Positions 28,430-50,378 of a DNA stretch of 64,000 bases are shown piece by piece. A model generated the notes under the pieces. It saw only the letters and a list, made by a program, of their open reading frames with translations, searched no databases and was not told the origin of the DNA. Position numbers and translations under genes: made by a program. Source of the stretch: Armatimonadota bacterium (GTDB lineage: Bacteria > Armatimonadota > Fimbriimonadia > Fimbriimonadales > Fimbriimonadaceae); the NCBI GenBank assembly GCA_016223145.1, contig JACRPN010000012.1, forward strand, positions 248,001-312,000, in the 5' to 3' direction. How positions within the stretch are numbered: position 1 is the first letter of the stretch; each line of letters starts with the position of its first letter.

Positions 28430-28453
28430 AATTCCATTTTTGGAGAAATTGAT

Positions 28454-30619: not shown

Positions 30620-30644
30620 GGACCGGAGGGGGCGTAGGGAGTTT

Positions 30645-30716: not shown

Positions 30717-30767
30717 GATTCCCTTTCCCAGAGAGAGCGCAAGCACGCTGTGATCTCCAACATGGTT

Positions 30768-32476: not shown

Positions 32477-32891
32477 GGGAGACCGTCCGGTGCGGGACGT
32501 GCAGTTCGTTGGATCACCAGGGATCCTCCTAAAGGCACCTCCCTTAGATCCAACAAACAAACGTCCTTCGCACCTCTGCCCAGCCTTGCTTCCACGCTCA
32601 GCGGCGGCACAGACCTCCCGCTTCCGACGGGTTCCACCCATCCCGCATTGACACAGCCATTGACGCCTCACCTGATGGTCCCAGAGGACCATGCGGTGTC
32701 CACCGGAGTGGCCGGCTATGGCTGGCAACGCTTGGGATGGGTCCCTCCGTCTCTCGCTTTCGGTCTGGACCGCCACCCTCGCTGTTGGGTGTAGACCGAA
32801 CGGCTCTTTACGTCCCTTGTCCACATCGCGCGCGGAAACCGGCGCTTGGAACGAGAACAAACTCCCACGCGATCGCACACATAATCCGGTC
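32477..32891. other. Gap after ardC
   Basis: About 415 bases without a supportable gene. GTTGGATC (32508-32515) and GATCCAAC (32547-32554) form an inverted repeat with a 31-base loop, possibly the end of the ardC transcript. An open frame that enters the next gene from 32691 has no ribosome site and looks non-coding. Confidence 0.4.
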
Positions 32892-33389: not shown

Positions 33390-33425
33390 GTCGCGCAGCG
33401 CCAGAACTTCGGGTATAGCGCTGCC

Positions 33426-33923: not shown

Positions 33924-34040
33924 AGGGAAACCTGTGGAAAACTCCCCCGGCGCCCCTGACGAGCATGGAGTATCTTCGAAAGCAGGAGTTCAGCGCGAGG
34001 ACGCCCCGTATTTTTGGCAGATTTCGCTGAAAGCCTTGAT

Positions 34041-34070
34041 TTGACCGGCGACGGTCTGTCATTCTATAAT
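34041..34070 (+). promoter_or_regulatory. Strong sigma70 promoter for the DUF2130 operon leader
   Basis: TTGACC (34041-34046), an 18-base spacer and a perfect TATAAT (34065-34070) form the best promoter in the window. It lies in the 359-base gap 33924-34282, and transcripts would carry a leader of about 200 bases. A hairpin GGTCCAGG/CCTGGACC (34076-34083 with 34095-34102) sits at the expected RNA start. Confidence 0.7.
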
Positions 34071-34159
34071 GATTTGGTCCAGGTTCTTGCGAATCCTGGA
34101 CCGAAATCGATGTTCAGTTTTACTCCGTTAGCGCGGAGGACGACCGCAAGGCAAACAAG

Positions 34160-34224
34160 TTGTCTTTACAGTTGTCAATCTTATAGTACGGCGAATTTCG
34201 GGAAATGTCAACGGCCGCACTATA
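34160..34224 (+). promoter_or_regulatory. Second promoter overlapped by an inverted repeat (operator-like)
   Basis: TTGTCT (34160-34165) and TATAGT (34182-34187), 16 bases apart, form a second promoter. TATAGTACGGC (34182-34192), which includes this -10, is matched by the inverted copy GCCGCACTATA (34214-34224) with one mismatch. A repressor bound here would block the promoter, about 60-100 bases upstream of the DUF2130 ATG. Confidence 0.5.
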
Positions 34225-34282
34225 GAAAATGATGTGAAGACGGCGCGTTTGCCTTGAAAGCAGCAATCTTTCGAGGATACGT

Positions 34283-35551: not shown

Positions 35552-36447
35552 GCCAGATGGACCTGATCGTCTTCAACGTCGAACATGGGCTTTGCGTCTT
35601 TGTCCGCACCCCAAGCGGACACGGGATCATGGTGGATATCGGTTGTTCCGATACCTTCAAACCCGCCAAGTGGCTGAGCGAGCCGAGCAACATCGACCTG
35701 ACACTTCACAACGGGAAGCGACTTGCGTGGCTCGTCGTAACGCACCCACATGATGATCACGTTGAAGGCGTCGATTCCATGATCGACACACTTCAGCCTG
35801 CCATTCTCGTGCGGCACACGGACCTTGATTGGCATGCCGTCCTTAACCCGCCAGACGGAGACCCGAGCTCCAATGCCAAGCGCTACTACCACTGGCAGGG
35901 AACCTACAATCAACCCGTCGCCTCATGTCCCGAATTGGGATGCAGTTTTGACCGGTTCGCATTGTCTCCCGAAAGAGCTCAAAGCCTCGGCGGCCAACTC
36001 AACAACGTGCTGAACAACAGCTCCTATGTTTCAGTGATCACTTGGCCGTATGCTCCTGTCGGGCGCTGGAAGGTAGTCGTTTGCGGCGATAACGAGGAGA
36101 AGGGCCTTGAGGCGCTGTTGGAGGTCCCGGGATTCGCAGAGGCGATCGCTGGTGCCGACATACTCGTGACGCCTCACCACGGCCATTCCTCTGGATACAG
36201 CGGCAAGTTCCTTTCGGCCATCGGCAATCCGCTGCTTTGCATCAGCTCGGTACCGGCGAAAGATCCGCACGTGGATTCCCGATATTCATCGGCCGCCCAG
36301 GGCGTGACTTTCAACGGAGGTACTCGCTCACACCTAACGACGAGAGGCGAGGGCCACATTTGGGCAACCCTCACTCCCGGTTACTATCGGTTCAACGCTT
36401 GGCCCTCTGACCTTGCCGAGATCCTGCGACGAATCAGACTGGGGTAG
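35548..36447 (+). CDS. Metallo-beta-lactamase-fold hydrolase, ComEC/Rec2-like
   Basis: A 299-residue protein with the MBL metal-binding pattern: HPHDDHVEG (about residues 72-80), a later GDNEEKG aspartate, and TPHHGHSSGYS. The opening strands (LIVFNVEHGLCVFVRTPSG) resemble the C-terminal nuclease domain of ComEC/Rec2, a relation that suggests a nucleic-acid or nucleotide phosphodiester substrate. It has no signal peptide. The GTG start lies inside the end of the DUF2130 gene (GTGA overlap); an ATG at 35557 is the alternative. The gene for a membrane protein follows after 6 bases. Confidence 0.8.
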   Translation: MSQMDLIVFNVEHGLCVFVRTPSGHGIMVDIGCSDTFKPAKWLSEPSNIDLTLHNGKRLAWLVVTHPHDDHVEGVDSMIDTLQPAILVRHTDLDWHAVLNPPDGDPSSNAKRYYHWQGTYNQPVASCPELGCSFDRFALSPERAQSLGGQLNNVLNNSSYVSVITWPYAPVGRWKVVVCGDNEEKGLEALLEVPGFAEAIAGADILVTPHHGHSSGYSGKFLSAIGNPLLCISSVPAKDPHVDSRYSSAAQGVTFNGGTRSHLTTRGEGHIWATLTPGYYRFNAWPSDLAEILRRIRLG

Positions 36448-36453
36448 TTCCGG

Positions 36454-37158
36454 ATGGACCAGAAACTGACGCTCTACGACGTGCTTGGCAGACTTGTCCC
36501 AGGGGGATTCTCTCTCTGGGGCTTGGTGCTGCTGGCAAGACAAGCAAAGGTGAATCTGCCGTTTGCAGCAGAGGCAAGTCCTCCGACGGAAGCAATCGTG
36601 TTTGTACTCATTGCTTATGTTGCCGGGCTCGTTGCGCACATTCTTGGGGATTGGCTCGTGGAGAGTTGGCTCTTCAAGCTTGCGGGGAAGCCGAGCGAGC
36701 GATTCCTGTCTTCGGATGCTGATGCAGTCGCGATCGGATGGATCAGGAGTGCAATGCAGGCCGCAGCGCCTTCCGACAAGTTTGACTTTGGCGGAGAAAC
36801 GGTCGATGGGCGCAATGCGTCTCACAGAGCATTCCGAATGGCGCTATCTTTGGTCGAGGACACGTCACCAAAGGTCCAGGCCGTCCAGGCGCAGTACGGC
36901 TTGCACCGCTCTCTCGCCGCCGCATGCATCGTGCTGACCGTCTTCGCCGCGGCTGGTCTAGTTCACGGGGCGGTCAATTGGGGATCAGTTGTCAGTTTTG
37001 GCGCGATCGCGACACTTTTTTGCGGCGCCACCCTGAAGTGGGGGCATAACCTGGTCAGATGCGTTTTCGAGGTTGCTGCCGTTCGTTTGCAGGGCAAAGA
37101 GAAGGAGCTGTCGAAACCTGAATCGCCAACAAGTCACTCAGGTTCCGACGCCACGTAG
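36454..37158 (+). CDS. Four-helix membrane protein of unknown family
   Basis: A 234-residue protein with hydrophobic stretches near residues 18-30, 48-65 (IVFVLIAYVAGLVAHIL), 150-170 (AAACIVLTVFAAAGLVHGAV) and 177-192 (VSFGAIATLFCGATL). Between the second and third is an 80-residue soluble loop (FLSSDADAVAIGWIRSAMQ). The C-terminal tail is hydrophilic. No family is recognised. It is third in the nuclease-hydrolase-membrane operon, 6 bases after the hydrolase gene. In defence systems such membrane partners often serve as effectors; that is only an analogy here. Confidence 0.65.
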   Translation: MDQKLTLYDVLGRLVPGGFSLWGLVLLARQAKVNLPFAAEASPPTEAIVFVLIAYVAGLVAHILGDWLVESWLFKLAGKPSERFLSSDADAVAIGWIRSAMQAAAPSDKFDFGGETVDGRNASHRAFRMALSLVEDTSPKVQAVQAQYGLHRSLAAACIVLTVFAAAGLVHGAVNWGSVVSFGAIATLFCGATLKWGHNLVRCVFEVAAVRLQGKEKELSKPESPTSHSGSDAT

Positions 37159-37232
37159 TTCCCTTGACAAGGCGGCCAACCTCAGATTGACAGTCCACTG
37201 ACGAAGAAACAACCTGTGATCCTAAGACGCTC

Positions 37233-37361
37233 ATGGAATTCCTACTGATCATTGCCGGCGTGATTGCCCTAAAGGCCCTGTCGACCTTTCTCTTTCGTAC
37301 TTTGCCCGAGTCAGAGGAGAAGGTCAAAAGGGCTCAGCGACAAGTGCGGTACAGACGATGA
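37233..37361 (+). CDS. 42-residue single-span membrane protein coupled to the type III methylase gene
   Basis: A very short gene: ATG at 37233, stop at 37359-37361. The product has one hydrophobic helix (MEFLLIIAGVIALKALSTFL) followed by a charged tail (RTLPESEEKVKRAQRQVRYR). Its stop overlaps the ATG of the methyltransferase gene (ATGA at 37358-37361), a classic coupling arrangement, so translation through it probably sets Mod synthesis. No known family is recognised. The alternative is a non-functional leader peptide. Confidence 0.55.
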   Translation: MEFLLIIAGVIALKALSTFLFRTLPESEEKVKRAQRQVRYRR

Positions 37362-39433
37362 GCGATCGGCAGACATCCTGGGGACCGGACAACCCGCACC
37401 CGTTGAGCCGGATGAAGACGGAGCTGGTGTGGGAGGGGAAATACGACGAGTACGGGAATCGGCGCGCTGTCAAGCTGCCCGAGACGCCACTCCCTCTTCA
37501 GCGAATCGAGACAATCGACGAGCCCCGTGACCGGGCCAGGGTGCTTGCTGCCAGGCAAGGGGACCTTTTTGACCAAGATGAGTTTCACAAGTCCAAACAC
37601 CGCGACGACTTCCGCAACATGCTCATCTGGGGCGACAACAAGCTGGCGCTCGCGGCGCTGCTCAAGGACTTTCGCGGACAGGTCGACCTGATCTACATCG
37701 ATCCACCTTTTGACGTGAAGGCGGACTTCACCATGGAGGTTGACTTGGGGGAAGGGTCTGAGCGACAGCCAAAGGAGCAGTCGATCCTGGAGGCGGTCGC
37801 ATATCGAGACATGTGGGGGGAGATTGGCGACGCCTATCCGCAGTTTATGTACGAACGCCTTGCTCTGGCTCGCGATCTTCTTTCTTCAAGGGGAGCTATC
37901 TACTTGCACTGCGACTGGCGCATGAGCGGCGTACTGCGCTCAATCCTCGAAGACTCCGGAGCTTTCGGTACCGAAGGATTCCTCAACAACGTTGTCTGGG
38001 TCTATGGCGCAAGCGCGCGCGGTGCAAAGGCCATCGCGCAGCAATTTGCCCGTAACCACGACGATCTCTTCTACTTTAGAAAGTCAACTGATCACAAGTT
38101 CTTTGGTGACGCTCTGGAACGCGCCTACACCTTCGAGGAGGCAAAGAAGGCTGGATTTCGCCGAGATGACGACAACCGTTGGTTCAAGACTGCACCACGA
38201 GGCGACTACACAGATGAAAGCGTTGAAGGGCTTCGGCGAGAGGGGAGAATCCACGAGACCAGGACCGGGAACATCCGGATCAAATACTTCCTGGAGGAGC
38301 GAAACGGCATCGTAATAGAACGGGTTCCAGCAGGGGACAGCTGGATGGACATACCAGACGCCATGCACCTTCCAGAAGCCGAACTGACCGGCTACGACAC
38401 ACAAAAGCCAGAAGCACTTCTCGGGCGAGTGGTGAGGTCGTCTTGTCCGGATGGGGGCCTGATCCTGGACTTCTTTTGTGGCTCTGGAACCACGTGTGCG
38501 GTAGCGGAGAAGCTTGGCCGGCGATGGATTGGGGTCGACCTGGGACGGTACGCTGTCCATACGACTCGGAAGCGACTCGTTCAAGTTCAGCGCGAACTTC
38601 ACCAGAAGGGAGAACCGTACCGATCATTCGACGTTTACAACCTGGGGCGCTACGAGCGGCAATGGTGGCAGATGGACCGGCTCAAAGGCTCTGATGACGA
38701 GCACCGGGCCCTTGTGCTCAAGTTCTATCGAGCCACACCGCTCGCCAATCCCCCCCATCCTGCCCTTCATGCCACCAAGGCCGGCGCCTACGTTCATGTC
38801 GATGAGATTGACGGCCTTCTCAGCTTCGACGAGCTTCGGGATGTCGCTAAGGCCGTCGCCAACGTAGCCGGAATTGAGGACCTTCAGACGTCGGGGCTAA
38901 CGCCGACCGGCAAACGTGTTAAGCTCACCTGCCTCGCCTGGGAGTTCGAGATGGACCTGCGGCTTCGCGCCCAAGCCCTCGAAGCCCAGTACGGTCTTGA
39001 GATCCAGCTCACCTATATCCCTCGTGAGATCATGGAGGCCAACCGCAACGAGATCCAGTTCTTCGACGCTGGAGCTGTTGACGCGGAACCTGTCAAGACT
39101 CAGCTTGAGGGCAAGACGGTGGTCGACGTGAAGCTGACCGGTTTCTTCCCAGCCCTCACCGAGGTGCCCGACAAAGAGATGGAAGAGCTTAGGGACCGCG
39201 CCGTTCGCTCGCCCTTCGACTTCATCGACTTCTGGGCTGTGGACTTCGAGCACGCGGACGGCAAGCCCTTCGAACACCACTGGCAGGACTTCCGAACGCG
39301 CAAGGACCGAAGCCTCAAGACCACCAGCACTTGCCAATGGCAGTACGACACGCGCGGCAAGAAACGCATCTGCGTGAAGGTCATCGACGTGTTCGGCGTG
39401 GACACGACCAAGGTGATCGAGGTGGACGTGTGA
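37358..39433 (+). CDS. mod: Type III restriction-modification system methyltransferase (Mod)
   Basis: A 691-residue N6-adenine methyltransferase and specificity subunit of a type III system. The catalytic motif DLIYIDPPFD lies near residue 112, and the S-adenosylmethionine-binding motif DFFCGSGTTCAVAEKL near residue 371. This is the beta-class order used by type III Mod proteins. The segment between them and the long C-terminal region hold target recognition. It overlaps the small membrane-protein gene upstream (ATGA) and the Res gene downstream (GTGA at 39430-39433), so all three are coupled. The extended C-terminal domain (residues about 450-691) is as expected for Res contact. Confidence 0.92.
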   Translation: MSDRQTSWGPDNPHPLSRMKTELVWEGKYDEYGNRRAVKLPETPLPLQRIETIDEPRDRARVLAARQGDLFDQDEFHKSKHRDDFRNMLIWGDNKLALAALLKDFRGQVDLIYIDPPFDVKADFTMEVDLGEGSERQPKEQSILEAVAYRDMWGEIGDAYPQFMYERLALARDLLSSRGAIYLHCDWRMSGVLRSILEDSGAFGTEGFLNNVVWVYGASARGAKAIAQQFARNHDDLFYFRKSTDHKFFGDALERAYTFEEAKKAGFRRDDDNRWFKTAPRGDYTDESVEGLRREGRIHETRTGNIRIKYFLEERNGIVIERVPAGDSWMDIPDAMHLPEAELTGYDTQKPEALLGRVVRSSCPDGGLILDFFCGSGTTCAVAEKLGRRWIGVDLGRYAVHTTRKRLVQVQRELHQKGEPYRSFDVYNLGRYERQWWQMDRLKGSDDEHRALVLKFYRATPLANPPHPALHATKAGAYVHVDEIDGLLSFDELRDVAKAVANVAGIEDLQTSGLTPTGKRVKLTCLAWEFEMDLRLRAQALEAQYGLEIQLTYIPREIMEANRNEIQFFDAGAVDAEPVKTQLEGKTVVDVKLTGFFPALTEVPDKEMEELRDRAVRSPFDFIDFWAVDFEHADGKPFEHHWQDFRTRKDRSLKTTSTCQWQYDTRGKKRICVKVIDVFGVDTTKVIEVDV

Positions 39434-42400
39434 GCGAGGACCCAATCCGCAACCCCCTGGAGCCCCTCTTCGCGCCTTGGGAAGAGCCAGATAAGCACCG
39501 CATAAAGCCCGCCGCCGAGGGGGACAGCCCGATCAAGTTTGGCCGGCGTCCGAGCAAGTGCTTACTCGTTCCTTACCTTCGCGGACTGGTTCGCGATTGG
39601 CGGCACGGCGGATATGCCGGGGCAACGGAAACGTCTAAGACGCTCTTGCGCCACTGGTTCGACACCGACCATGCGAACGGCTTTCGGTACCACTTTTGCC
39701 AGCGCGAAGCCACCGAGACCGCCATCTACCTCTACGAAGTGGTCCGCTACCGGCGGCCAACGGAGATGTTCTCCTCGATCTTGCCGGAGGACCATCGGGA
39801 CTACAACGCCCTGACCGCTCTGCCAGACGCCGAGGACCTTTGGGCGCGCTATTGCGCCAAGATGGCGACCGGCAGCGGCAAGACCAAGGTAATGAGCCTG
39901 CTGATCGCTTGGAGCTTCTTCAACGCCAAGTACGAAGCCGGAAGCGAGATGCCCAAGCACTTTGTGCTGATCGCGCCGAACCTCATCGTCTTCGATAGGC
40001 TCTGCTCGGACTTCGCCGGCGATTGGGTCTTCAGCAAGGACCCCATCCTTCCGCCCGAGTTCGCGAGCGATTTCAACGTGCAGGTGGTCAAGCAAGACGA
40101 CCCCGGAGGGTCGAGTTACGAAGGCACGATCTACCTGACCAACATTCATCGCCTCTTCGAGAAGGAAGAGGATTCGAAGGCAACGGCCAAGGGGTCGCTG
40201 CTTGGACCCGACGTTCAGAAAGCGAAGGTCTACAAGGTTGGCGAAGCTTTACGCGCGCGCATCGCGGAGCATCCGGGGGTGATGGTGCTGAACGACGAGG
40301 CGCACCATCTACACGACCCCGAGTCCGCATGGAACGACGCCATCCAGGCCATCCACCGCCAGAACCTCAGCAAGGGCCATCGTGGCGTGCAGCTTCAGAT
40401 GGACTTCACCGCCACCCCGAAGCACAACGACGGGATGCTCTTTCGACACGTCATCTGCGACTTTCCGCTCGGCGAAGCGGTTGACGCGGGGATCGTCAAG
40501 GTTCCTGTCATCGGGCGGTCCAAAGACATCAAGAAGGACGAGTCGGGCGGCGACGCCTTCGAGGAGTACCGATCCCACTTGCTGCTCGGCTACCAGCAAT
40601 ATGAGGGCGCATACGAGGAGTGGAGCGGATCGCACAAACCAATCCTGTTCGTGATGTGCGAGAACGCGACCAAGGCCACCGAAATCGCCAAGCGCCTCAA
40701 CGAGGATAAGGAGAAGTTCCCGCTTCTACATGGGCGCGTCCTGAACCTCCACACGCGCTTGAAGGGCAAGCTGGTGACCCGCAAGGTCGGAAAGCAGGAG
40801 TTCCAGGAGTTCGTCTACAGCGAGACACAGATCAAGGACGACGACCTGAGATGGCTGCGCGAGCAGTCGGCTGAGCTGGACGAGCCCGACAGTCGATACC
40901 GGTGCGTTGTCTCGGTCCTGATGCTCCGTGAGGGTTGGGACGTTCGCAACGTCACCACAATCGTTCCTTTGCGGCCGTATTCGGCCAAGTCGAATATTCT
41001 GGCGGAGCAGACCCTCGGACGGGGACTGCGTCGCATGACGCCGCCTGGACTAGAGTGCCGCGCAGAACGGGTTACGGTGGTAGAACACCCGAACTTCACC
41101 GCGTTCTACCAAGAGGAGCTCGCCCTTGAGGGCCTCGACGTGATCATCGAGGACCTGGGCAAGACCAAAGCCCAGACGGCAAGCGTATTCGTTGATTTCA
41201 AGAACAAGCCCGTCCAAGACCTGGAGCTTGAGATCCCCTTGGTTTCCGACGCCATCGAGACGACTGCCAGGCTTGACGAGTTGATCTTCGATGCCGTCGA
41301 GAAGCGCTTTCGTGAGAACCTGAAGCCCCTTCCGATTAAGTCCCGAAGCGCCGGGACGATCCAGCTTGTGGAGCGGACCATGATCACCGATGAGGTCGTT
41401 AAGGTCTATGAGATCGACCGCGGGCTTCTGTCTCTGGGAGCCACCGCGCCGAGCGTCTACGTGAGAGCACTCGAAAAGGGGTGCCGCGTCCATGGCACCA
41501 ATGCGATCCTACAGCCCCTGATCACCCGCTTCATCGAAGAGCTGCTGTTCGAGAAAAAGGTCTCCCTCTTCAGCGGGGAGGTCGATCACAGGATGTCCGA
41601 TCCCGATGTCCGGGAGTGGATCAACTTCGTTTTTGCGCCGCTGATCCGGGAAAAGACCCACACGGAGACCAAGCGCATCCGCCGAAGCGCGGGAACTAGG
41701 CTTTCAACCTGGAAGCCGTACCAGGCAAGCTACACGCCGAGCCGTCCGTGTGAGAAGGCGGACCGAACCATGTTCAACTTGGTGCCCTGCGCCAATGGGT
41801 TCGAGTCTGAGTTCACTTCGTTCCTGGACGACTGCGACGACGTTGTCGCGTTCGCCAAAAATGCCGGTCCACAGAAGCTCACGATCGACTACATGAAGGC
41901 TGCGGGCCGAAGGGCGCTCTATTGGCCGGACTTCATTGCACGCCTTGAGAACGGGAACTACGCCCTGATCGAAACGAAGGGTCAGATTGACGTTGACGCG
42001 GCTCGCAAAGCCCAGGCGGCTGTGGAATGGTGCAAGTCAGCATCGGCTTCAGGAACGACCTGGTCCTACGTGTTCGTGGTCCAGTCGGTCTTTAACGAGA
42101 ACGTCGACCTCAAGCTCAGCGCGCTAGCCCGAGCCTCGATGCCAAGGCTCAAGGCACTTCTGGAAACGCTCAAGAAGGGCCAGGCAGAACTGCCGCTGGA
42201 GGCAACGCCGGAAGAGCTGAGGGACGACAAAGCGACCGCGTTCCTAAAGGAGTTCGGGATCACTGGCATCCCCGCGCGATGGCGATCCGACATCACGATG
42301 GCGATAAACCAGTTCGAATACGATTGCCGCATGAATCATCCGCACTTCAGCGCGGCATTCGGGACGCTCTGGATTCCGTTCGAGGAGCTCTCAGGGGAGA

Positions 42401-42834
42401 TTCAGGTTCAACTCATCAAGCCGAGGTTGCCGCAAGGCGTTGCCGCAGAGGGCCAGTACTTCAACCCTTACCTAGACGACCTTCACAACGCGGACAAATC
42501 GATTTTGCAGCGCCAGCAGCGTAACTTGAAGAAGAACGTCAAGGACTTGGCCTTTAACAATCGCGCGGGCGTTCTCTTGACATGCATCGACTACGCCATC
42601 AATCCCCGATGGTCATCGGTGTCGGCGCCGGGCGTTTGGGAAGATGTCCGCGCCACGTTCTGCACGCCCTCATTCAGGACGATCTACCCGAAGCTTGCGG
42701 CAGTCGGTGAGTTCCGCAACAAGCACGTCGGCCACGGCGAGGAAAGACTAACCGATGCGAACCTTGCTCGGACCAAGCTGGGAGAGTGGATTCAGGTCCT
42801 CTGCGAGCTTGACCGCCTTGGAACCGAAATCTGA
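39430..42834 (+). CDS. res: Type III restriction endonuclease subunit (Res)
   Basis: A 1134-residue ATP-dependent restriction subunit. The SF2 helicase motifs are MATGSGKTKVMSLL (Walker A, about residue 143), VLNDEAHHLHD (DEAH, about 287), DFTATPKH (motif III) and the C-terminal RecA motifs VVSVLMLREGWDVRNV and EQTLGRGLRRM. Far downstream YWPDFIARLENGNYALIETKGQ is the PD-(D/E)xK nuclease site (D, ETK). The GTG start is taken from the 4-base overlap with mod. With Mod it cuts DNA carrying unmethylated, head-to-head sites. No frameshift or missing motif is seen, so the system looks intact. Confidence 0.92.
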   Translation: MSEDPIRNPLEPLFAPWEEPDKHRIKPAAEGDSPIKFGRRPSKCLLVPYLRGLVRDWRHGGYAGATETSKTLLRHWFDTDHANGFRYHFCQREATETAIYLYEVVRYRRPTEMFSSILPEDHRDYNALTALPDAEDLWARYCAKMATGSGKTKVMSLLIAWSFFNAKYEAGSEMPKHFVLIAPNLIVFDRLCSDFAGDWVFSKDPILPPEFASDFNVQVVKQDDPGGSSYEGTIYLTNIHRLFEKEEDSKATAKGSLLGPDVQKAKVYKVGEALRARIAEHPGVMVLNDEAHHLHDPESAWNDAIQAIHRQNLSKGHRGVQLQMDFTATPKHNDGMLFRHVICDFPLGEAVDAGIVKVPVIGRSKDIKKDESGGDAFEEYRSHLLLGYQQYEGAYEEWSGSHKPILFVMCENATKATEIAKRLNEDKEKFPLLHGRVLNLHTRLKGKLVTRKVGKQEFQEFVYSETQIKDDDLRWLREQSAELDEPDSRYRCVVSVLMLREGWDVRNVTTIVPLRPYSAKSNILAEQTLGRGLRRMTPPGLECRAERVTVVEHPNFTAFYQEELALEGLDVIIEDLGKTKAQTASVFVDFKNKPVQDLELEIPLVSDAIETTARLDELIFDAVEKRFRENLKPLPIKSRSAGTIQLVERTMITDEVVKVYEIDRGLLSLGATAPSVYVRALEKGCRVHGTNAILQPLITRFIEELLFEKKVSLFSGEVDHRMSDPDVREWINFVFAPLIREKTHTETKRIRRSAGTRLSTWKPYQASYTPSRPCEKADRTMFNLVPCANGFESEFTSFLDDCDDVVAFAKNAGPQKLTIDYMKAAGRRALYWPDFIARLENGNYALIETKGQIDVDAARKAQAAVEWCKSASASGTTWSYVFVVQSVFNENVDLKLSALARASMPRLKALLETLKKGQAELPLEATPEELRDDKATAFLKEFGITGIPARWRSDITMAINQFEYDCRMNHPHFSAAFGTLWIPFEELSGEIQVQLIKPRLPQGVAAEGQYFNPYLDDLHNADKSILQRQQRNLKKNVKDLAFNNRAGVLLTCIDYAINPRWSSVSAPGVWEDVRATFCTPSFRTIYPKLAAVGEFRNKHVGHGEERLTDANLARTKLGEWIQVLCELDRLGTEI

Positions 42835-42916
42835 GGGACGCGGATACGTGCTGAACAGCATCGCGCCAGTGACGTGACACAATCGGATTGAGGCTCGCAC
42901 GAGCGAGGAAGCACCG

Positions 42917-43552
42917 ATGAGTAGAACGAAACGACGCGCAGAGACCCAGGAAGCGTCAATCGAGCTTCACAACCAGCGAATCGAGGTCATCTTGTGCCAC
43001 GAAAGCGACATGCGCGCGCGTGGAGACCGGCTATTCTTTTCTCTTGGGTTGGGCAAGCCCAGACCTGCCAGCTTTGAGGAGGCCAAAAACCTCTATCCGC
43101 CTGAAGCCATTGAAGCCGCCGTTGACCTTCCAGAGAAAGCAAGGTACACGGTCCTGTTCTTTGACGGGGACCGCCCCTGCCTGACATACGGCTGGCATGT
43201 CTGCCCTGTGCTGGTTCAAGGCGAGCCGCATTTCTCCCTGATCGCCATTCCGGGCAACTTCGAACTTCCGGTCCTCACGAACTATCCGGAGATATTCTCG
43301 GGCGTCGAAGATGTGCGACTTCTTGAAGCCAACGATCACCGCTTCTGGTCTGATGGAAAGCCAGTTCCGAAGCTCCACCTTGGCACGATGGACGATCCAA
43401 GCGGGTTCACGCCTGTTAGAAACAACACAGACCTGAAGAGGGTGCTCCTAAGCGGTCCTGTCAGCAGCGGTTTCTTCGATGTTGTTCAGAGGGGACTTGA
43501 CACCGCAAAAACCATGCTGGTACAACATCCTCACCTCTGCCGAGAGCGGTAG
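42917..43552 (+). CDS. Hypothetical protein downstream of the type III system
   Basis: A 211-residue soluble protein (MSRTKRRAETQEASIELHNQ) with GAGGAAG 6 bases before the ATG. It has strand-like stretches (ARYTVLFFDGDRPCLTYGWH, PHFSLIAIPGNFELPVLTN) and no recognised motif. It is the last gene before a strong terminator hairpin. With an 82-base gap after Res it could belong to the type III operon or be independent. Confidence 0.5.
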   Translation: MSRTKRRAETQEASIELHNQRIEVILCHESDMRARGDRLFFSLGLGKPRPASFEEAKNLYPPEAIEAAVDLPEKARYTVLFFDGDRPCLTYGWHVCPVLVQGEPHFSLIAIPGNFELPVLTNYPEIFSGVEDVRLLEANDHRFWSDGKPVPKLHLGTMDDPSGFTPVRNNTDLKRVLLSGPVSSGFFDVVQRGLDTAKTMLVQHPHLCRER

Positions 43553-43557
43553 AGGGA

Positions 43558-43634
43558 AAGGCTGAAAGCGCCATTTGCCCGAAAGGGCGGTTCGACCCGG
43601 AGACGGGGGACCTTATGCGCTTTCAGCCTTTTTT
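43558..43634 (+). ncRNA. Structured RNA: three-way junction closed by a terminator stem
   Basis: AAGGCTGAAAGCGC (43558-43571) is perfectly complementary to 43617-43630, and six Ts follow (43629-43634). The enclosed 45 bases fold into two further hairpins with GNRA loops: GCCC-GAAA-GGGC (43577-43588) and CCCG-GAGA-CGGG (43596-43607), the latter extended by GGTT/GACC. This is more structure than a simple terminator needs. It may be a small RNA 3' end or a ligand-sensing fold. It starts 5 bases after the stop of the 211-residue protein gene. Confidence 0.55.
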
Positions 43635-43709
43635 CGTTTGTCCTCCATCTGTGTCGCCGCCCAAGCGAATGGGTGCGCATCCACTGCGCATACCAAAAAG
43701 AGGATCAAA

Positions 43710-44399
43710 ATGAAAAACAACAGCTACGGCGTTGCGAGTGTTCCGGGGTCTCTACGACAACAGAACGCGAAGCGCCAATCGTCAACAGCGAACGGACCGC
43801 TTGTCCTGCAAAAACTGCGGGCCGTCCTCGAAGAACTCAAAGCCTCAACAGGCAAGATGGTCTTCACGAGCGTGTGCTTCCGCAACTTGTTTGACTTGAG
43901 CAACGAGGCGTTCGTTGTGGCTCACGATGTCCGGTTTGCCTGCAAGGACAAAATCGACACCGAGAACCCCTTCACCGAAGTGGAAATCACGCCGTGGCGG
44001 TACGGCGAACATGGTGGCCGCGACCTGGTCTTCTGCACCTGGGAAGATGTGACAGGGGACTGGTCCGGCGACATCTACTACACCGAAGATGAGTTCCTTG
44101 GGTTCCTCGAAGTTGGCATTGTCTGCTGCGGGTACATGGTCGTTAGCGACGGTGATCCTGCACACAATGTGTACGTCCCGGTAGAGATGCTCGATGCGAT
44201 TGGTGCGGACAAAGGAGACGAACTCGACTTCGGGCCCATGGTCAAGTTCGCTGACCAAGTGATGGTCTCCGGGTCTTCCGGACCGTGTCTCATCCTCCTG
44301 GATCAGGACGACCAGCGGTTCAAGTACCTCCAGGAGCTCAGCAAGAAGACCGCGAAGGACTTCCCCCCGGAGCACTTCGGAATCAGCCGCGACGAGTAG
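43710..44399 (+). CDS. Hypothetical protein
   Basis: A 229-residue protein starting at the ATG at 43710 (MKNNSYGVASVPGSLRQQN), with AGAGGATC just upstream. The sequence is acidic and probably alpha/beta (VVLQ-like strands, RDLVFCTWEDVTGDWSGDIYY, GFLEVGIVCCGYMVVSD, PCLILLDQDDQRFKYL), with no motif I recognise. It lies between the structured RNA and the excisionase-like gene. An open frame upstream to 43575 would run through the RNA structure and is rejected. Confidence 0.5.
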   Translation: MKNNSYGVASVPGSLRQQNAKRQSSTANGPLVLQKLRAVLEELKASTGKMVFTSVCFRNLFDLSNEAFVVAHDVRFACKDKIDTENPFTEVEITPWRYGEHGGRDLVFCTWEDVTGDWSGDIYYTEDEFLGFLEVGIVCCGYMVVSDGDPAHNVYVPVEMLDAIGADKGDELDFGPMVKFADQVMVSGSSGPCLILLDQDDQRFKYLQELSKKTAKDFPPEHFGISRDE

Positions 44400-44449
44400 C
44401 TCTTCGGCTGCACCTCGCGTAGCATGCTGACCACCAGGAAGACATCTCT

Positions 44450-44839
44450 ATGGCACCCAGGAGTTCGGTCCGAACCGGCAATGCTACCCTCCGCCCTCAG
44501 GACGCCCGCGAATACGTAGGCGCTACCGAGAAAGGTTGGCGGCGCTTGGTTCGGGCCGGACTCATCGCCCCTTTGCCAGTGATCGGCTCGTTCCGGGTCC
44601 AAGACCTGGACGAGCTGGTCGACAAGCTGGCCCGACTACACAACACCGGAGACGGTAAGGAGACAGACGAAGAACATGGCAACACGGAGAAGCGACGGTC
44701 GCTGGATGGCGCGCCGGAATGTCAACGGCAAGCCAGTGTACGGCTACGGAGCGAGCGAAGAAGAAGCGGACGCGGACCTGGAGTCCAAGCTCATCCCCTT
44801 GATCGGCCCGCTCGGCGCAAGCCCGACGACCCTACATGA
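44450..44839 (+). CDS. Excisionase-like small DNA-binding protein, long overlap with integrase
   Basis: The N-terminal 75 residues look like a winged-helix/MerR-type excisionase domain (TLRPQDAREYVGATEKGWRRLV, then LIAPLPVIGSFRVQDLDELVD), and AGGAAG lies upstream. From about residue 76 the frame runs 164 bases into the integrase gene in another frame. There its sequence (Arg/Asp/Pro-rich) looks like an out-of-frame shadow. Either the protein carries a meaningless tail, the stop was lost by a frameshift, or a frameshift links it to the integrase. The position just before the integrase fits an excisionase or recombination directionality factor. Confidence 0.6.
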   Translation: MAPRSSVRTGNATLRPQDAREYVGATEKGWRRLVRAGLIAPLPVIGSFRVQDLDELVDKLARLHNTGDGKETDEEHGNTEKRRSLDGAPECQRQASVRLRSERRRSGRGPGVQAHPLDRPARRKPDDPT

Positions 44840-45845
44840 GCTGGCGAAAGAGGTGTGGTATCCGCACATCGAGCAGCTAGCTCCCCTGACTCAGAAGCGC
44901 TACGAAGGCGTCTACACGAATCACATTCGCGGCCGCCTCGGCAATCTGCCGCTTGAGGCGATTACGCCCATGGCCATCCGCCGATGGCTTAACGGGATGG
45001 TCGCCGATAGCGACTCGACGAAACGTTACGTGCTTGAGATCCTCAAGGGAATCCTGATGCATGCGGTCCGGATGGAACTGATCGGGCGGAACCCATGTTC
45101 TGCCATCAGCCTGCCAAAGAACTACCGCAAACGCGAACGGATTCTGGATCTGGACGCGGCATTGAGGCTCTTGGACGGTGTCCGACAGTCAAAGTTGTCG
45201 GCACCGGTATTCCTCGCAGCCACCATGTCGTTGAGGCGAAGCGAGATTGCCGGCCTGAAGTGGAATGATCTTGACCGGCGCAAAGGCGAGCTTCACATCG
45301 TGCGGCAGCGACAGGCGGTCAGGCCCTACGGCGTCATCGAACGTGAACTCAAAACGTCAGAAAGTGCCCGCACCTTGTACCTGTCCGCGCGCATGATCGA
45401 GGAGATCGACGCACGAGGCGACCTCGACAGCGCCTATATTACGACCTTTGGCGGAAGGCCCTGGGTGCCGGACACGATCACGGAGTTCTGGCGCGCAGAG
45501 CGGAATGGCTTCGGCCTGCCCGATTGGCACTTCCACGACCTGCGACACCTCGCTGCAGGCTTGCTTGCGGCCGCAGGTTGTGACCTACTCGTCATCGCAG
45601 CGGTGCTTGGCCACAGGAAGCCCGACATGACGCTGCTCTACACGTCCGTATCACAGTCCCGAAGGCGCGAAGGCGCCGACAAGATGGCCCAACTCTTCGC
45701 GCGCAAGCGGACCTTTGACACTCGTTTGACACTCAGCCAGTCGAAAAAGGAACCTAATGGTGGAGATGATGGGATTCGAACCCACGACCTCTGCAGTTCG
45801 ATGCTCGAATTGAACGACAAATGTCGGTTATGCACTAGGATGTGA
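44676..45845 (+). CDS. int: Tyrosine recombinase/integrase of the island
   Basis: A 389-residue integrase. It has an N-terminal arm-binding domain (TRRSDGRWMARRNVNGKPVYG), a SAM-like core-binding domain (HELAKEVWYPHIEQLAPLTQ) and a catalytic domain. The catalytic domain has the first Arg in MSLRRSEIAGLKW, HFHDLRHLAAG (His-x-x-Arg) and LGHRKPDMTLLYTSVS (second His and the Tyr nucleophile). The last 20 or so codons (DDGIRTHDLCSS) read through the tRNA-derived attachment site at 45758, a common artefact of integration at a tRNA gene. The true free-element form may end differently. Confidence 0.93.
   Translation: MATRRSDGRWMARRNVNGKPVYGYGASEEEADADLESKLIPLIGPLGASPTTLHELAKEVWYPHIEQLAPLTQKRYEGVYTNHIRGRLGNLPLEAITPMAIRRWLNGMVADSDSTKRYVLEILKGILMHAVRMELIGRNPCSAISLPKNYRKRERILDLDAALRLLDGVRQSKLSAPVFLAATMSLRRSEIAGLKWNDLDRRKGELHIVRQRQAVRPYGVIERELKTSESARTLYLSARMIEEIDARGDLDSAYITTFGGRPWVPDTITEFWRAERNGFGLPDWHFHDLRHLAAGLLAAAGCDLLVIAAVLGHRKPDMTLLYTSVSQSRRREGADKMAQLFARKRTFDTRLTLSQSKKEPNGGDDGIRTHDLCSSMLELNDKCRLCTRM
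45714..45734. repeat. Right pair of integrase arm-type repeats
   Basis: Two copies of TTTGACACTC separated by one G lie within the 3' end of the integrase gene, 24 bases before the att repeat. They match the doublet at 28141-28162 near the left end. Paired direct repeats inside both ends are the usual layout of arm-type integrase sites. Confidence 0.55.
45758..45797. repeat. Middle attachment repeat, 40 bp of the tRNA-Ala 3' end
   Basis: These 40 bases are identical to 50093-50132 of the tRNA-Ala(CGC) gene, covering CCA, acceptor strand, T arm, variable loop and part of the anticodon stem. With one further mismatch the match extends to about 45802. It is not an intact tRNA, because the D arm and 5' half are missing. 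It separates the integrase element from the 4.3-kb methyltransferase segment. Confidence 0.88.
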
Positions 45846-45930: not shown

Positions 45931-47067
45931 CTACCGAGGGGTACATACGAGAATGAGTTCGTCAACTCTCAAGCGGGCGGCTCTTTGCGTTCCATTGCCT
46001 CCCAGCGTTGAGAAGGTGCTTGAGTTTGCGATCCGTTGCACTTGGAATAGACCGGTCAGGGTATCGATAACCATGTCCCCTGAAAGTCCATTTGAGCACT
46101 CCCCACTTGGATAGGTCACGATGCAGGTCGAGCCCTGGATTGCCACGACACGTGCCAACGACTCAAAGGCGCTTTGCGACTTTGATTTCAGACTAAAATG
46201 GGAATGCGGGCGCTCCTGAAAGCTCGGGTATCGACCAGTTCCTTCGGGCGTGACTTCAGAGCCTCGGGCAAGCGTCTCAAGCACATGATAGAATCGGCTG
46301 TATTGGACCCCGGAGTAGGGCGGATCAATGAACACGACGTCCCGTTCTTCAAGCTTCTTTGCGACTATGAGAGCATCAGAAACCGCTGCGCTTCCCTTAC
46401 TCCTGGCGTGTCTTGTCGACAGATCGAGGAAAGCTCTCCGAGCGTGTCCCCAAATGTCCCGCCGCCATGCCTCAAATAGGAATGGAGCTGCTGTCGAAGT
46501 TGGCTGAAATGGCTGAGCGGTATGGCCCGGAGCGGCGACACACTCCGAAGCTGCAATAACGAGGGCGGCCAAGTATATCTCAGGGCAGCTCGCTTCGCCC
46601 GGGATCGTCGCGCGCAAGCCGTCCAAGATGATCGCTTGAGCGGGGCTGAAGTAGTGCCCACCGTATGCTCTTGTGATTGGCCCTCCGAGAGTGCGGCAAT
46701 GCTTCCGGACGTCCGCAACGAAACCCTTCGTTCGGGAATCCCAATCCATTGCTTGGTATGCGAAGCTCAACCAAGCCCCCTCGCTCTTGGCAATCCACTC
46801 GGAGGCATCGCGCACCCACCGATCCCACATTCGTCCTGGGTTCGACGGAGCCTCAGTTCTGCTAACGACGGCGCCGGCCAAAACCCTCGAATATTCCTGG
46901 GTATCCACCGCAAAGACGGGTACTCGGTGGCGCTCAGCGACGTGCCAACTCACTGCAGCTGAGCCAGCAAAAAGATCCACGAATCTATTGGCACTAGGCG
47001 CGTGGTCCGAGAGGACCTGACCCAGGCCCGATTCGAGCATCGACCGTTTAGACCCCATATACTTCAT
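45931..47067 (-). CDS. D12-class DNA adenine methyltransferase
   Basis: A 378-residue N6-adenine methyltransferase. The N-terminal S-adenosylmethionine motif is YMGSKRSMLESGL with FVDLFAGSAAVSWHVA (about residues 29-44). The catalytic motif is VVFIDPPYSGVQYSRF (DPPY near residue 247), the alpha-type order of Dam/D12 enzymes. It is longer than Dam, with a large insert between the two motifs that probably holds target recognition. Its ATG overlaps the stop of the preceding gene (ATGA at 47064-47067). No restriction endonuclease is recognisable next to it, so either the partner proteins restrict by an unusual mechanism or it protects or marks DNA. Confidence 0.88.
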   Translation of the reverse strand: MKYMGSKRSMLESGLGQVLSDHAPSANRFVDLFAGSAAVSWHVAERHRVPVFAVDTQEYSRVLAGAVVSRTEAPSNPGRMWDRWVRDASEWIAKSEGAWLSFAYQAMDWDSRTKGFVADVRKHCRTLGGPITRAYGGHYFSPAQAIILDGLRATIPGEASCPEIYLAALVIAASECVAAPGHTAQPFQPTSTAAPFLFEAWRRDIWGHARRAFLDLSTRHARSKGSAAVSDALIVAKKLEERDVVFIDPPYSGVQYSRFYHVLETLARGSEVTPEGTGRYPSFQERPHSHFSLKSKSQSAFESLARVVAIQGSTCIVTYPSGECSNGLSGDMVIDTLTGLFQVQRIANSSTFSTLGGNGTQRAARLRVDELILVCTPR

Positions 47068-48386
47068 GCGAAGAGTCCCGCGACGGCAATTCTCTCGCAG
47101 CGACACGCGTTTGCCATAACAGACGCGCATTGCTCCCACAACGACTTTCGGTCCGGCATAGCCAGGATTTTGAGGAAGTCGCCATGTGCATCGAGGGAGT
47201 CCTGGGCTACGTCCTGGCTTGACGAGGCCGTACCTGCCGCCAGTGCCCCTCTCGCTTCAAGCGCAGGGAGCCACCAGAAGCTGAGGTTTTGCTCGGTGAT
47301 CCCCGAATCATTGAGCATGCGCCGTGCATATAGGACGGAGTGGAAACAGAGCAACGCTGCACGCGACAGGACGCCCTCAATTTCTCCGTTCACCTTCTCA
47401 AGCGCATCACCCAGCACTGGAATGGTTGGTAGCGGATCCGTCATGCAGTAGCGCCTGAGTACGGCTTCGGTCGGCGAATTCGGGCCCATAGCCGCAATCA
47501 TCGTTTGAACTTCGGCCTCAAAAGCCACGAAGGCATCTTGTGGCGCAGAACCCCGATTGAGTTCAAAAGCGCGTCGCAGGATTGCACAGAGGATGAGACT
47601 TCCAAGGCTACCGTCGCGTGGGCCGTTCGAGCCAATCATGTGCTCACCGATCGTTCCCAGCAGAGTCAGGTCATCTCCGACTGGCCTGCTCGGAACGCCC
47701 TCGATGCCGCGAGGCCGATAACTCGCCTTTCCGCGCGTCGCCTGGTCGTTCCGCGAAAGGAGCTGGATGTCGAGCCCGATACCGGACAAATAGCTTGAAC
47801 ATGTTGTAAGCAGTGCGGCACCTGACGGAAAAGATGTGAGCCAGACACTCACGGGCTGCCCGTCGACAATCACTTGGTCGAGAAGAGCTTTCGCATTCGG
47901 AGACGTTGTCCACCAGTCGTATGCGTTCCAGCAAAACGAATGGGTCTTGCCTTCGTCTGCCACGTTGATCGAGTTTCCCGCCGCGTCGACGACACAGTGA
48001 TTATCGTGAAAGACGCCTATGCCGTCGCAGGCTAGCAAACCCATGGCCGATCGAAGTTCGGAATAATACGCGAGATGAAGCGCCACCGAAGCATCACCTT
48101 GCAGCGTGGTGTCCCATGCAGAAGCCAGATAGCTGTGTGCGTCGTAGCAATGCATGAAGCTCGAGGCGGCTACGTATTCGCCTATCATATCGGGGTAAGG
48201 CCTTGCCGGAACTCCGGTCAAGCTCCCTGCCAAGAGGTCACGAAGGAAATCCTTGGCACCACTCGCCATTTGATTGTCTGCTGCTATGCAAAGTCCGCCT
48301 AAGAATGACGCTCTTAGCCTAGCGAGCTGAGAAATGACCCCTGCTCGCTGCGCGATAGCAAGCTTTCCCGGAAGGGCACTACTCAC
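47064..48386 (-). CDS. Unrecognised 440-residue protein, middle gene of the methyltransferase operon
   Basis: I do not recognise the family. The GTG at 48386 is chosen because it overlaps the preceding stop by 8 bases and has AGGGGAA 6 bases upstream; a start at 48443 would overlap by 65 bases. The protein is soluble, mixed alpha/beta, and relatively rich in Cys and Trp. Distinct stretches are ALHLAYYSELRSAMGLLACDGIGVFHDNHC (residues about 105-135), HSFCWNAYDWW, and FELNRGSAPQDAF. The HDNHC segment could be metal-binding, but no known nuclease motif is seen. As the middle gene it is probably part of one complex or system with its neighbours. Confidence 0.6.
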   Translation of the reverse strand: MSSALPGKLAIAQRAGVISQLARLRASFLGGLCIAADNQMASGAKDFLRDLLAGSLTGVPARPYPDMIGEYVAASSFMHCYDAHSYLASAWDTTLQGDASVALHLAYYSELRSAMGLLACDGIGVFHDNHCVVDAAGNSINVADEGKTHSFCWNAYDWWTTSPNAKALLDQVIVDGQPVSVWLTSFPSGAALLTTCSSYLSGIGLDIQLLSRNDQATRGKASYRPRGIEGVPSRPVGDDLTLLGTIGEHMIGSNGPRDGSLGSLILCAILRRAFELNRGSAPQDAFVAFEAEVQTMIAAMGPNSPTEAVLRRYCMTDPLPTIPVLGDALEKVNGEIEGVLSRAALLCFHSVLYARRMLNDSGITEQNLSFWWLPALEARGALAAGTASSSQDVAQDSLDAHGDFLKILAMPDRKSLWEQCASVMANACRCERIAVAGLFA

Positions 48387-49911
48387 TGTATTCCCCTGAA
48401 AGCCGACGGGTGGCTTCCTCGGCATCATCGCCAATGATTCCATCCTGTTGGCTCAGCCAATCGAGCAGGTCTTGGCGTAGGGATTTGTATCCACCACTCC
48501 CACGATAGGTCTGCTTTTTGGTCTTAACATGATCATCTTCCAGACCTGGTGCGTCGGACGTCCTCCAGTCAAATCCAGCGAGTGACGTAGCAAGCAAAAC
48601 TAGATACTCCTCTACGGTTGACTTCTTCCCGAGACTCTCGATGGCATGAGCAATTGCCTCGGGGGTCATCCGATCGTTAGGGAGTCCTGTCTGCCACTCA
48701 GACAACCCGATTCTCTCTTTGCTCACCATCAGCACGTCATTCATGATGTGGAGCAAACCTCTCACTCCCTGGTCCGTATTGAGAAGCGTCTTGCGGCCGG
48801 TGAAGGCAGGATCCGTGTCAGAGAAGGCGGCTTCTGTGGTTTCTTCTCGAAGGGCAGACGCCCAAGGCGCGTCGGATGCCTTCACTTGCGCTTGAATCGA
48901 GCTCCAGAAGGAAATGAGAATGGCCGCTTGGTCCGTGCGATTCCACTGAGACTCAGCCGTGTCGGGAGTTCCAAATAGGCCGCCAATCCGAACGTTTGGG
49001 CCGGATCGCCTTCGGACCAGCGTAGCCGTAAGATTCCGCACCCATGAAGCCTGACGGACCTGTGCGGCTCCTGCCTCACCAAGCATGTTGATCCGTTGAT
49101 ACCACGGGCTTCCAGGAAACGACCACAGGGCCTCGGTCAGTTCTTGGGCGCGGGCTTCCCGATAGATTATGTGGATTTCACCGCGTTCGAGCCAGTCTTG
49201 TTCTCGCAGCAAGGGATAGAGATCGTACGCAAGGCTTGTATTGATCTTCTTTGGCTTAATGTTGATGACGTAGAACAGGTATGCCTGCCAAGCTAGATCG
49301 AGGCCGAGGAAAGCTACTACGGGCAGTGAAAATTCGTCGTCGAGGACTAAGTCGTCAAACGCCCAAAGTCTGTGTTGACCGTCAATGACCTCGATCGGAT
49401 GTGAGTCCGCTGGGTCCCAGGGCAGAGATTCCATCGAACCAGGGAGATGCATCTCGGCGAACACGCCATCAAGCTCGCGAAACGAGACGAGATCCTGAGC
49501 CTGGACTTTGCCGCTAGGCCGAGCGTCCTCGGGCAGCTTGACGTTGATCACGATCGCCGTTGGCAGCCATCCAGGCATCTTCAGATCCTGATACTCCGGC
49601 GCATTTCTCTTCTGTGCCGACAAAGTAGACCACGGATAGCCGCTTTCGACAAAGCTGGCTATCTCCTTGGAACGATCCTCGTCTAAGGTTCTCTGGATTC
49701 CCTTATCACGTCCTCCCTTCAAACGCTCCTCGACCGACCGTCGCTCGACTCCGGACAGCGCCCTGAGTAGTTGAGCTGGGACGGACATCACGTAGAACTG
49801 ATGGGGAGGTGGTCTCCGGTCGGCTGTCGCGTCGGTCTCGACGGCATCCCAGGAGTTACGCCACTGAAGCACCTTTAGTGCGGGAATCGTCTTTGGCAAA
49901 GGACTGGCCAT
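48379..49911 (-). CDS. DGQHR-domain protein (DndB/ParB-like superfamily)
   Basis: A 510-residue protein with the diagnostic HPIEVIDGQHRLWAF (about residues 173-187), followed by LPVVAFLGLDLAWQAYLFYVINIKPKKINTSL, the usual continuation of DGQHR proteins. This family includes DndB, the transcriptional regulator/ATPase of DNA phosphorothioation systems, and many proteins of defence islands. The ATG at 49911 is supported by GGGAG 7 bases upstream; reading farther upstream would enter the tRNA gene. It is first in a three-gene operon (overlaps of 8 and 4 bases). No other dnd genes are present, so it is not a canonical Dnd locus. Confidence 0.8.
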   Translation of the reverse strand: MASPLPKTIPALKVLQWRNSWDAVETDATADRRPPPHQFYVMSVPAQLLRALSGVERRSVEERLKGGRDKGIQRTLDEDRSKEIASFVESGYPWSTLSAQKRNAPEYQDLKMPGWLPTAIVINVKLPEDARPSGKVQAQDLVSFRELDGVFAEMHLPGSMESLPWDPADSHPIEVIDGQHRLWAFDDLVLDDEFSLPVVAFLGLDLAWQAYLFYVINIKPKKINTSLAYDLYPLLREQDWLERGEIHIIYREARAQELTEALWSFPGSPWYQRINMLGEAGAAQVRQASWVRNLTATLVRRRSGPNVRIGGLFGTPDTAESQWNRTDQAAILISFWSSIQAQVKASDAPWASALREETTEAAFSDTDPAFTGRKTLLNTDQGVRGLLHIMNDVLMVSKERIGLSEWQTGLPNDRMTPEAIAHAIESLGKKSTVEEYLVLLATSLAGFDWRTSDAPGLEDDHVKTKKQTYRGSGGYKSLRQDLLDWLSQQDGIIGDDAEEATRRLSGEYSE

Positions 49912-50092: not shown

Positions 50093-50168
50093 TGGTGGAG
50101 ATGATGGGATTCGAACCCACGACCTCTGCAGTGCGATTGCAGCGCTCTCCCAGCTGAGCTACATCCCC
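50093..50168 (-). tRNA. tRNA-Ala, anticodon CGC
   Basis: A complete 76-base cloverleaf on the minus strand starting GGGGATGTAGCTCAGCTGGG at 50168. The anticodon stem is CTGCA/TGCAG around loop ATCGCAC (anticodon CGC), the T arm contains GGGTTCGAATCCC, and the acceptor ends CATCTCC-ACCA with CCA encoded. It is the integration target: its 3' 40 bases recur at 45758 and its last 21 bases at 28045. A -10-like TATAAT on the minus strand (50361-50356) lies about 190 bases upstream. Confidence 0.95.
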
Positions 50169-50181
50169 ATATTCGACTGTT
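50143..50181. repeat. 39-bp exact direct repeat, first copy (second copy 50229-50267)
   Basis: The 5' half of the tRNA-Ala gene plus 13 bases of its upstream flank recur exactly at 50229-50267, with a period of 86 bases. The duplication therefore covers the tRNA 5' half and its leader, not just a random word. Confidence 0.85.
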
Positions 50182-50183
50182 CC

Positions 50184-50254
50184 TCAGAAGGAATGAGACT
50201 CGACCCACGACCTTCCCGATGATCGGGACGCTCTCCCAGCTGAGCTACATCCCC
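50184..50254 (-). pseudogene. Decayed second tRNA-Ala copy
   Basis: The minus-strand sequence from 50254 begins with the same acceptor, D arm and start of the anticodon stem as the intact tRNA. The anticodon arm is then replaced by a palindrome (TCCCGATCATCGGGA) with a 3-5-base loop. The T arm reads GTGGGTCGAGTCTCAT instead of a paired GGGTTCGAATCCC, and the acceptor 3' strand no longer matches well. It is probably the degraded original gene or a product of an imprecise integration. Confidence 0.6.
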
Positions 50255-50378
50255 ATATTCGACTGTTGAATCGGCTATCAGAGTCCTAATTGATGCCTCA
50301 AATAGTGGATTGGAGGGGCCTTCCCAAAGGAGATTCCTGAGTCCACCAGGCGCGAATTATACCTTGAGGCTCGGGCAC

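Follow-up and report, generated by a model that had tools for sequence, protein, structure and literature searches.

What do three small genes, overlapping one another on one strand and enclosed by copies of a tRNA-Ala 3' end, do for the cell that carries them? The question is raised by a 64,000-nucleotide stretch of an Armatimonadota genome (assembly GCA_016223145.1, contig JACRPN010000012.1, positions 248,001 to 312,000), which we call the window and in whose coordinates positions are given unless another locus is named. A cassette in it encodes a DGQHR protein, a middle protein that we call MID, and a D12-class N6-adenine DNA methyltransferase. A preliminary description of this DNA had reported three minus-strand genes with overlaps of 8 and 4 bases between tRNA-Ala 3' repeats, and all of this was confirmed: the DGQHR and MID genes share 8 nucleotides (48379-48386), and the MID and methyltransferase genes share 4 (47064-47067). 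The trio is a real, recurrent module that travels as a unit through many bacterial and archaeal phyla.

A recurrent trio and its three proteins

The same three-gene order was searched for in other genomes and was found there, near defence genes. Our DGQHR-seeded sample comprised 80 loci, kept from 114 relatives in GTDB species genomes, and nine loci in viral contigs; the record titles of the loci cover at least 17 phyla, archaea (Methanoregula, Woesearchaeota) included. A MID profile matched 92 of all 93 loci collected, and MID followed DGQHR in all 88 loci with downstream sequence left. In the sole MID-less locus of the 89 that were DGQHR-seeded, the contig stops 65 bases past the DGQHR gene. 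Wherever the contig permits, the two genes are adjacent and co-directional, the exception being L091, where the DGQHR gene is interrupted by an insertion that also sets it apart from MID. Close relatives of the trio include the gene sets of Curvibacter (L070) and Stutzerimonas (L044). When the search was seeded with the methyltransferase, all eight viral-contig D12 relatives at 460 bits or more were found to sit in a full trio, and within the window's own phylum MID is encoded by three of 291 genomes, each of which has DGQHR and D12 too. The distances of DGQHR and MID are correlated with a Spearman coefficient of 0.72 (n=89), compared with 0.38 and 0.46 for the correlations with the methyltransferase. 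At the level of sequence, linkage and co-evolution show MID to be an obligatory partner of DGQHR.

In one further genome of the phylum (G184), a strong D12 relative is accompanied by a DGQHR protein that is more distant and by another kind of middle protein, 281 amino acids long. In this variant trio (L128, 160-3567) the DGQHR protein is divergent, the middle protein looks unrelated and carries a YYSSHFVMRAFAHSMGIF segment, and the D12 enzyme is the same. Homology between MID and the L128 middle protein is unsupported (hhalign probability 0.6%), and no close relatives of the latter were found in plasmids, viral contigs or 150 genomes.

The modification gene, by comparison, varies. Among 92 loci it is a large D12 enzyme in 53, an upstream Bacteroidota form of D12 in five, a Dam-type methyltransferase in 17, an N6/N4 methylase in seven and an MT-A70 enzyme in one, and in four (L048, L068, L033 and L011) it is represented by DNA phosphorothioation (Dnd) genes. 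These four come from Pseudanabaena and Methanoregula and have the DGQHR-MID pair inside or beside Dnd clusters: L048 encodes dndC (684 bits against a cut-off of 290) and dnd_assoc_4 (156 against 74), L068 and L033 have DndD- and DndA-like genes that score under cut-off, and L011 has relatives of these genes. L028 and L042 are the only loci flanked by sequence on either side that show no modification gene; a further three lie at the end of a contig. A maximum-likelihood tree built from 90 DGQHR proteins puts the number of changes in modification type at 13 or more. Even sister pairs differ in type, as with L040 (D12) and L030 (MT-A70) or with L010 (D12) and L019 (N6/N4), the assignment of L019 being weaker than the others because its methylase lies three genes upstream. 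As reconstructed on this tree, the replacements show the DGQHR-MID pair to be a fixed core and the marking enzyme to be exchangeable. In L042 (790-3395), a reverse transcriptase (392 amino acids) and a phosphoribosyltransferase-like protein (405 amino acids), both recognised by eye, lie directly upstream of the pair.

The DGQHR protein matches PF14072 (E 2.6e-7) and TIGR03187 (E 4.3e-25, 89 bits against a cut-off of 58.85), and its name-giving motif, D177-G-Q-H-R181, is invariant across 84 sequences together with Q73 and R74; R58 and R80 are further invariant residues. An AlphaFold2 model (predicted local distance difference test score, pLDDT, 90; predicted template modelling score, pTM, 0.79) places a ParB/sulfiredoxin-type nucleoside triphosphate (NTP) switch domain in the N-terminal part, at about residues 36-222, and the C-terminal part is helical. 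Fold comparison of residues 36-222 with VIA returned PadC (Z 7.5), ParB (6.6-6.8), Noc (6.2), KorB (5.4) and sulfiredoxin (Srx, 4.8). The top ten matches were to these five proteins throughout (Z 4.5-7.5, root-mean-square deviation 2.5-5.2), with weaker matches to SspE (Z 3.9) and BrxU (Z 2.9); in Foldseek by itself the matches of the domain fell short of significance. From the model we therefore predict the DGQHR protein to be an NTP switch of the ParB/sulfiredoxin fold. Published work shows that switches with this fold can bind CTP, ATP or GTP, and that a DndB-like protein binds both ATP and GTP (PMC12704722); related domains of ParB/sulfiredoxin type work in Type IV restriction (PMC4619093). 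The D12 methyltransferase has intact DLFAGS (31-36) and DPPY (248-251) motifs, matches PF02086 (E 1.4e-15, 58 bits) and the PADLOC family MTase_II (E 4.9e-21), and has a distant relative that adjoins a BglII/BstYI restriction endonuclease.

MID is modelled with high confidence (pLDDT 91.1, pTM 0.92) as a mostly helical protein. It is the fastest-evolving member of the trio, with a mean identity of 28% against 44% for each of the other two, and the window copy differs from the consensus at several conserved tryptophans. Seven residues are invariant (Y107, Y108, H149, D206, R218, Y223 and R342), all of them present in the window copy, and six more are near-invariant (H79, D82, H104, R112, D214 and S222); together these residues look like a putative binding or catalytic site. 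The HDNHC segment that had been singled out in this protein is present at residues 127-131 and is not a conserved metal motif, because only its second H is common in the family, whose consensus reads GIGxFNxxHxxxD. A HEPN RNase was also considered: the stretch HLAYYAELRAAxSxLASxGIGxF is HEPN-like by eye, but 85 sequences contain no conserved R-x(4-6)-H, the catalytic pattern of these enzymes.

Comparison of MID sequences with Pfam, NCBIfam, PADLOC (87 members) and PDB chains gave only isolated weak matches to single members. With Foldseek no match to its fold was found at E <= 0.001 in the PDB and viral models, and the best VIA match, to the Roquin ROQ region (Z 5.0 over 123 residues), is not above background for helical proteins, which is not proof of a new fold. 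No MID or DGQHR protein was found in annotated phage records. Judged by sequence, MID is a protein family without a name in the curated libraries searched. In PADLOC-DB 2.0 neither the DGQHR protein nor the window MID matched any family up to E 1. The proposal that the system is undescribed survives, because MID has no PADLOC family and the three genes co-occur elsewhere. A search of open-access papers turned up no account of the trio.

What the cassette may do

We judge it moderately probable that the cassette is a restriction-modification-like, modification-gated defence module, with DGQHR and MID as its predicted sensor and effector; most likely, it would let cells distinguish their own marked DNA from invading DNA. 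Given its family and intact motifs, the D12 methyltransferase would put N6-methyladenine on a short motif of host DNA. The NTP switch of the DGQHR protein, whose fold is known from the model, would load on DNA and act as the sensor, and DGQHR and MID together would form the effector side, which would act on unmarked DNA or shut the cell down when such DNA appears. The effector pair would stay constant as the marking enzyme is swapped.

Several lines of evidence argue for this role. The pair is linked to several unrelated DNA-modifying enzymes, as a modification-gated effector needs, and we also count in favour the linkage and co-evolution of DGQHR and MID, the replacements of the modification gene, the restriction endonuclease beside the distant D12 relative, and the fast evolution of MID with its invariant polar residues retained. 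Moreover, the trio loci of Bacteroidota have a methyltransferase (43% identical) and a 215-amino-acid domain fused to DGQHR (37-40% identical, E about 1e-42) that match those of another type of locus, represented by L148. There the 215-amino-acid domain runs on into an OLD-like ABC ATPase, and in L129, a related locus, the gene of the domain protein is followed by one for a DUF2357-PDDEXK_7 nuclease. DGQHR-MID thus fills an ATPase-plus-nuclease slot in Bacteroidota, which argues for a restriction-like role of the pair. A two-gene relative (L131) points the same way, because it consists only of a Dam methyltransferase and a DGQHR protein whose N-terminus, with its D-x(n)-ECK pattern, is nuclease-like. 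Similar D-x(n)-ECK DGQHR proteins adjoin the trio in L054, L065 and L073, and all four of these long proteins contain a C-terminal segment in which an R and an H stand four residues apart. The L148 and L129 gene sets (L148 5908-9709, L129 6663-11594), each with a D12 methyltransferase and a 'SWTKYD'-domain protein, may themselves represent another modification-linked system without a name.

Defence genes are enriched around the trio: 127 neighbouring genes gave 138 matches to PADLOC families at E <= 1e-10. For 127 control genes, drawn from regions far away in 15 of these genomes, the figure was 29. The measure is rough, because several models can match one protein. On the Zymomonas mobilis plasmid pZZM405 (L003, 4310-11601), DGQHR, MID and a Dam-type methyltransferase lie upstream of a DUF4433 (DarT-like) and macro-domain (DarG-like) gene pair.

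Some observations weigh against a defence module with DGQHR-MID as effector. No nuclease motif was found in the trio's MID or DGQHR protein. In four loci the pair is placed like dndB, within or next to a set of Dnd genes, and three of these loci have a separate HKD/helicase (PbeA-like) restriction gene. The known DGQHR proteins DndB and DpdB are tied to modification, not cleavage (PMC4507180, PMC12839542). Finally, L028 and L042 hold the pair with no modification gene in view, a hazardous state if the pair were strictly a restriction effector. A bolder form of the defence proposal is offered tentatively: DGQHR-MID may be a new and unnamed restriction core of bacteria and archaea, indifferent to the chemistry of the self-mark, in which a predicted NTP-switch clamp and a new helical effector enzyme couple to adenine methylation by unrelated enzymes or to phosphorothioation.

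An alternative, which we hold to be rather unlikely, makes DGQHR-MID a regulator and not an effector: as an NTP-gated clamp it would govern the modification enzyme, directing or restricting the sites and times of marking, so that the cassette would serve DNA marking only. DndB limits phosphorothioation and DpdB drives 7-deazaguanine insertion (PMC4507180, PMC10853773, PMC12839542), and our protein shares the DGQHR domain with both. In Pseudanabaena and Methanoregula, the pair adjoins dnd genes that have their own restriction gene. This alternative keeps its weight because DndB and DpdB act with modification, the Dnd loci have a PbeA-like gene, and two loci are without a modification gene. However, the link to DndB that had been drawn earlier holds for the shared domain only, since the NCBIfam equivalog models for DndB-associated proteins and DpdB are far under their cut-offs. 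Moreover, the same pair stands beside several kinds of modification enzyme, most of which need no helper by known biology, and in Bacteroidota it fills an ATPase-plus-nuclease slot. The earlier proposal of an undescribed modification-dependent defence or DNA-marking system is partly supported: PADLOC, Pfam and NCBIfam contain no MID family, the trio recurs and its surroundings are enriched in defence genes, with regulation of modification as the main rival.

We consider it improbable that the cassette serves a mobile element. In that case it would be selfish, addiction-like or anti-restriction in character, marking the DNA of the element and keeping islands, prophages and plasmids stable. Its attachment-site (att)-bounded form, its presence beside integrases on prophage contigs and its occurrence on plasmids would fit such a role, but the trio is also found at ordinary chromosomal, defence-rich sites in many genomes. 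The mobile setting does not separate defence from a selfish role, because defence systems generally ride on mobile elements. That three unrelated genes are neighbours by chance is refuted by the recurrence of the same order and direction in at least 17 phyla, at nearly 100 other loci.

If the cassette is a modification-gated defence module, it would be a minimal one, built of three small genes, spread over at least 17 phyla and containing an unnamed protein family. With the pair fixed and the marking enzyme swapped repeatedly, one could then ask directly how an effector re-couples to new DNA marks, and the pair offers a comparison of a putative sensor working with base methylation in one genome and with phosphorothioation in another. 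It would also give DGQHR/DndB-type proteins a testable role outside the regulation of Dnd.

The tRNA-Ala insertion site

The three genes occupy the space between the left copy of a 45-nucleotide tRNA-Ala repeat and the intact tRNA-Ala gene that contains the right copy (Table 1). The two copies are 98% alike and share an identical 37-nucleotide core (0.00 expected by chance). A third, partial copy begins at 28044 and, together with a tyrosine integrase whose 3' end carries the middle copy, outlines a neighbouring 17.7-kb island. Its genes (28289-45845) encode a Prim-Pol/D5 primase-helicase, an ArdC-like anti-restriction protein, DUF2130, a metallo-beta-lactamase fold protein, Type III Mod and Res, a helix-turn-helix protein and the integrase. 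The preliminary description had seen no nuclease partner. The cassette indeed has no recognised nuclease, but the adjoining att-bounded island has a complete Type III restriction-modification system (37358-42834).

Two other genomes of the genus (L167 and L168) have the same repeat array, again at this tRNA-Ala and there at a full-length copy of it; the repeats flank integrase-less cassettes whose contents, judged by eye, resemble metal resistance or metal-efflux genes. The tRNA-Ala gene is thus an insertion hot spot at which the 45-nucleotide repeat bounds stacked cassettes (window 28044-50168; L167; L168). Because the arrays in the two other genomes bound integrase-less cassettes, the trio is one such cassette at an integration hot spot; the repeats show it to move into tRNA-Ala as an att-bounded unit without an integrase, and we infer that the integrase of the neighbouring island is a candidate for moving it in trans. 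At the outer repeat of L167 there is a short stretch similar to the C-terminal end of the window integrase. A 39-nucleotide exact duplicate (50143-50181 and 50229-50267) places the 5' part of the tRNA-Ala and its upstream flank in a damaged second tRNA copy. A sigma-70 promoter scan of the cassette found none. Elsewhere in the window (13742-17401) a 1219-amino-acid protein has an AAA-like (AAA_35) domain and WD40-type repeats.

Table 1. Positions of the cassette, its surroundings and the long DGQHR proteins of other loci
Feature	Position	Strand	Remarks
DGQHR protein gene	48379-49911	minus	510 amino acids, ATG start
MID gene (middle protein)	47064-48386	minus	440 amino acids, GTG start
D12-class N6-adenine DNA methyltransferase gene	45931-47067	minus	378 amino acids, ATG start
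att-like direct repeat, tRNA-Ala 3' end copy	45758-45802	plus	left cassette end; inside 3' end of neighbouring integrase gene
att-like direct repeat within intact tRNA-Ala gene	50093-50137	plus	right cassette end
tRNA-Ala (CGC), intact	50093-50168	minus	integration site
Tyrosine integrase of neighbouring island	44676-45845	plus	PF00589 3.2e-15; 3' end carries middle repeat copy
Long DGQHR protein	L131 6852-9919		about 750-790 amino acids
Long DGQHR protein	L054 12678-15050		about 750-790 amino acids
Long DGQHR protein	L065 4722-7025		about 750-790 amino acids
Long DGQHR protein	L073 6137-8407		about 750-790 amino acids; two open reading frames

Comparison with known systems

The closest parallels are systems in which a DGQHR protein is encoded with a DNA-modification enzyme. 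This is true of Dnd phosphorothioation (DndABCDE, PbeABCD), where the protein is of the PF14072/TIGR03187 kind, and in four relatives our pair lies among or beside Dnd genes. In contrast, the cassette has three genes only, with no dndC, dndD or dndE in it or elsewhere in the window; its DGQHR protein reaches 63.6 bits against a cut-off of 450 for TIGR04172 and gave no reported match to TIGR03233 (DndB), and MID is without a counterpart among the named Dnd proteins tested. The Dpd system for 7-deazaguanine likewise links a DGQHR/ParB-like NTPase to a DNA-modifying enzyme, but the window protein reaches 32.6 bits against a cut-off of 300 for the DpdB model NF041060, and the cassette contains no DpdA or DpdC.

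GmrSD/BrxU and SspE, which combine a ParB-fold NTPase with an HNH nuclease, share the ParB/Srx-type NTPase domain, used there for modification sensing, although the structural matches are weak. They differ in that none of our three proteins has an HNH/DUF1524 Pfam match and in that a modification gene nearly always lies near the DGQHR-MID pair. With Type II restriction-modification the cassette shares a stand-alone D12 adenine methyltransferase and a co-directional partner. Here the differences are that DGQHR and MID have no Pfam, PADLOC or NCBIfam nuclease match and that the trio has two conserved partners, which stay while the modification gene is swapped at least 13 times.

Unlike DISARM, BREX and related modification-gated systems, the trio has no helicase, PglZ or AAA+ ATPase and consists of three small genes only. 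What it has in common with them is a constant core with an exchangeable methyltransferase, an arrangement found in the DISARM classes. Modification-gated defence is thus known as a kind, and what is new is the DGQHR-MID module.

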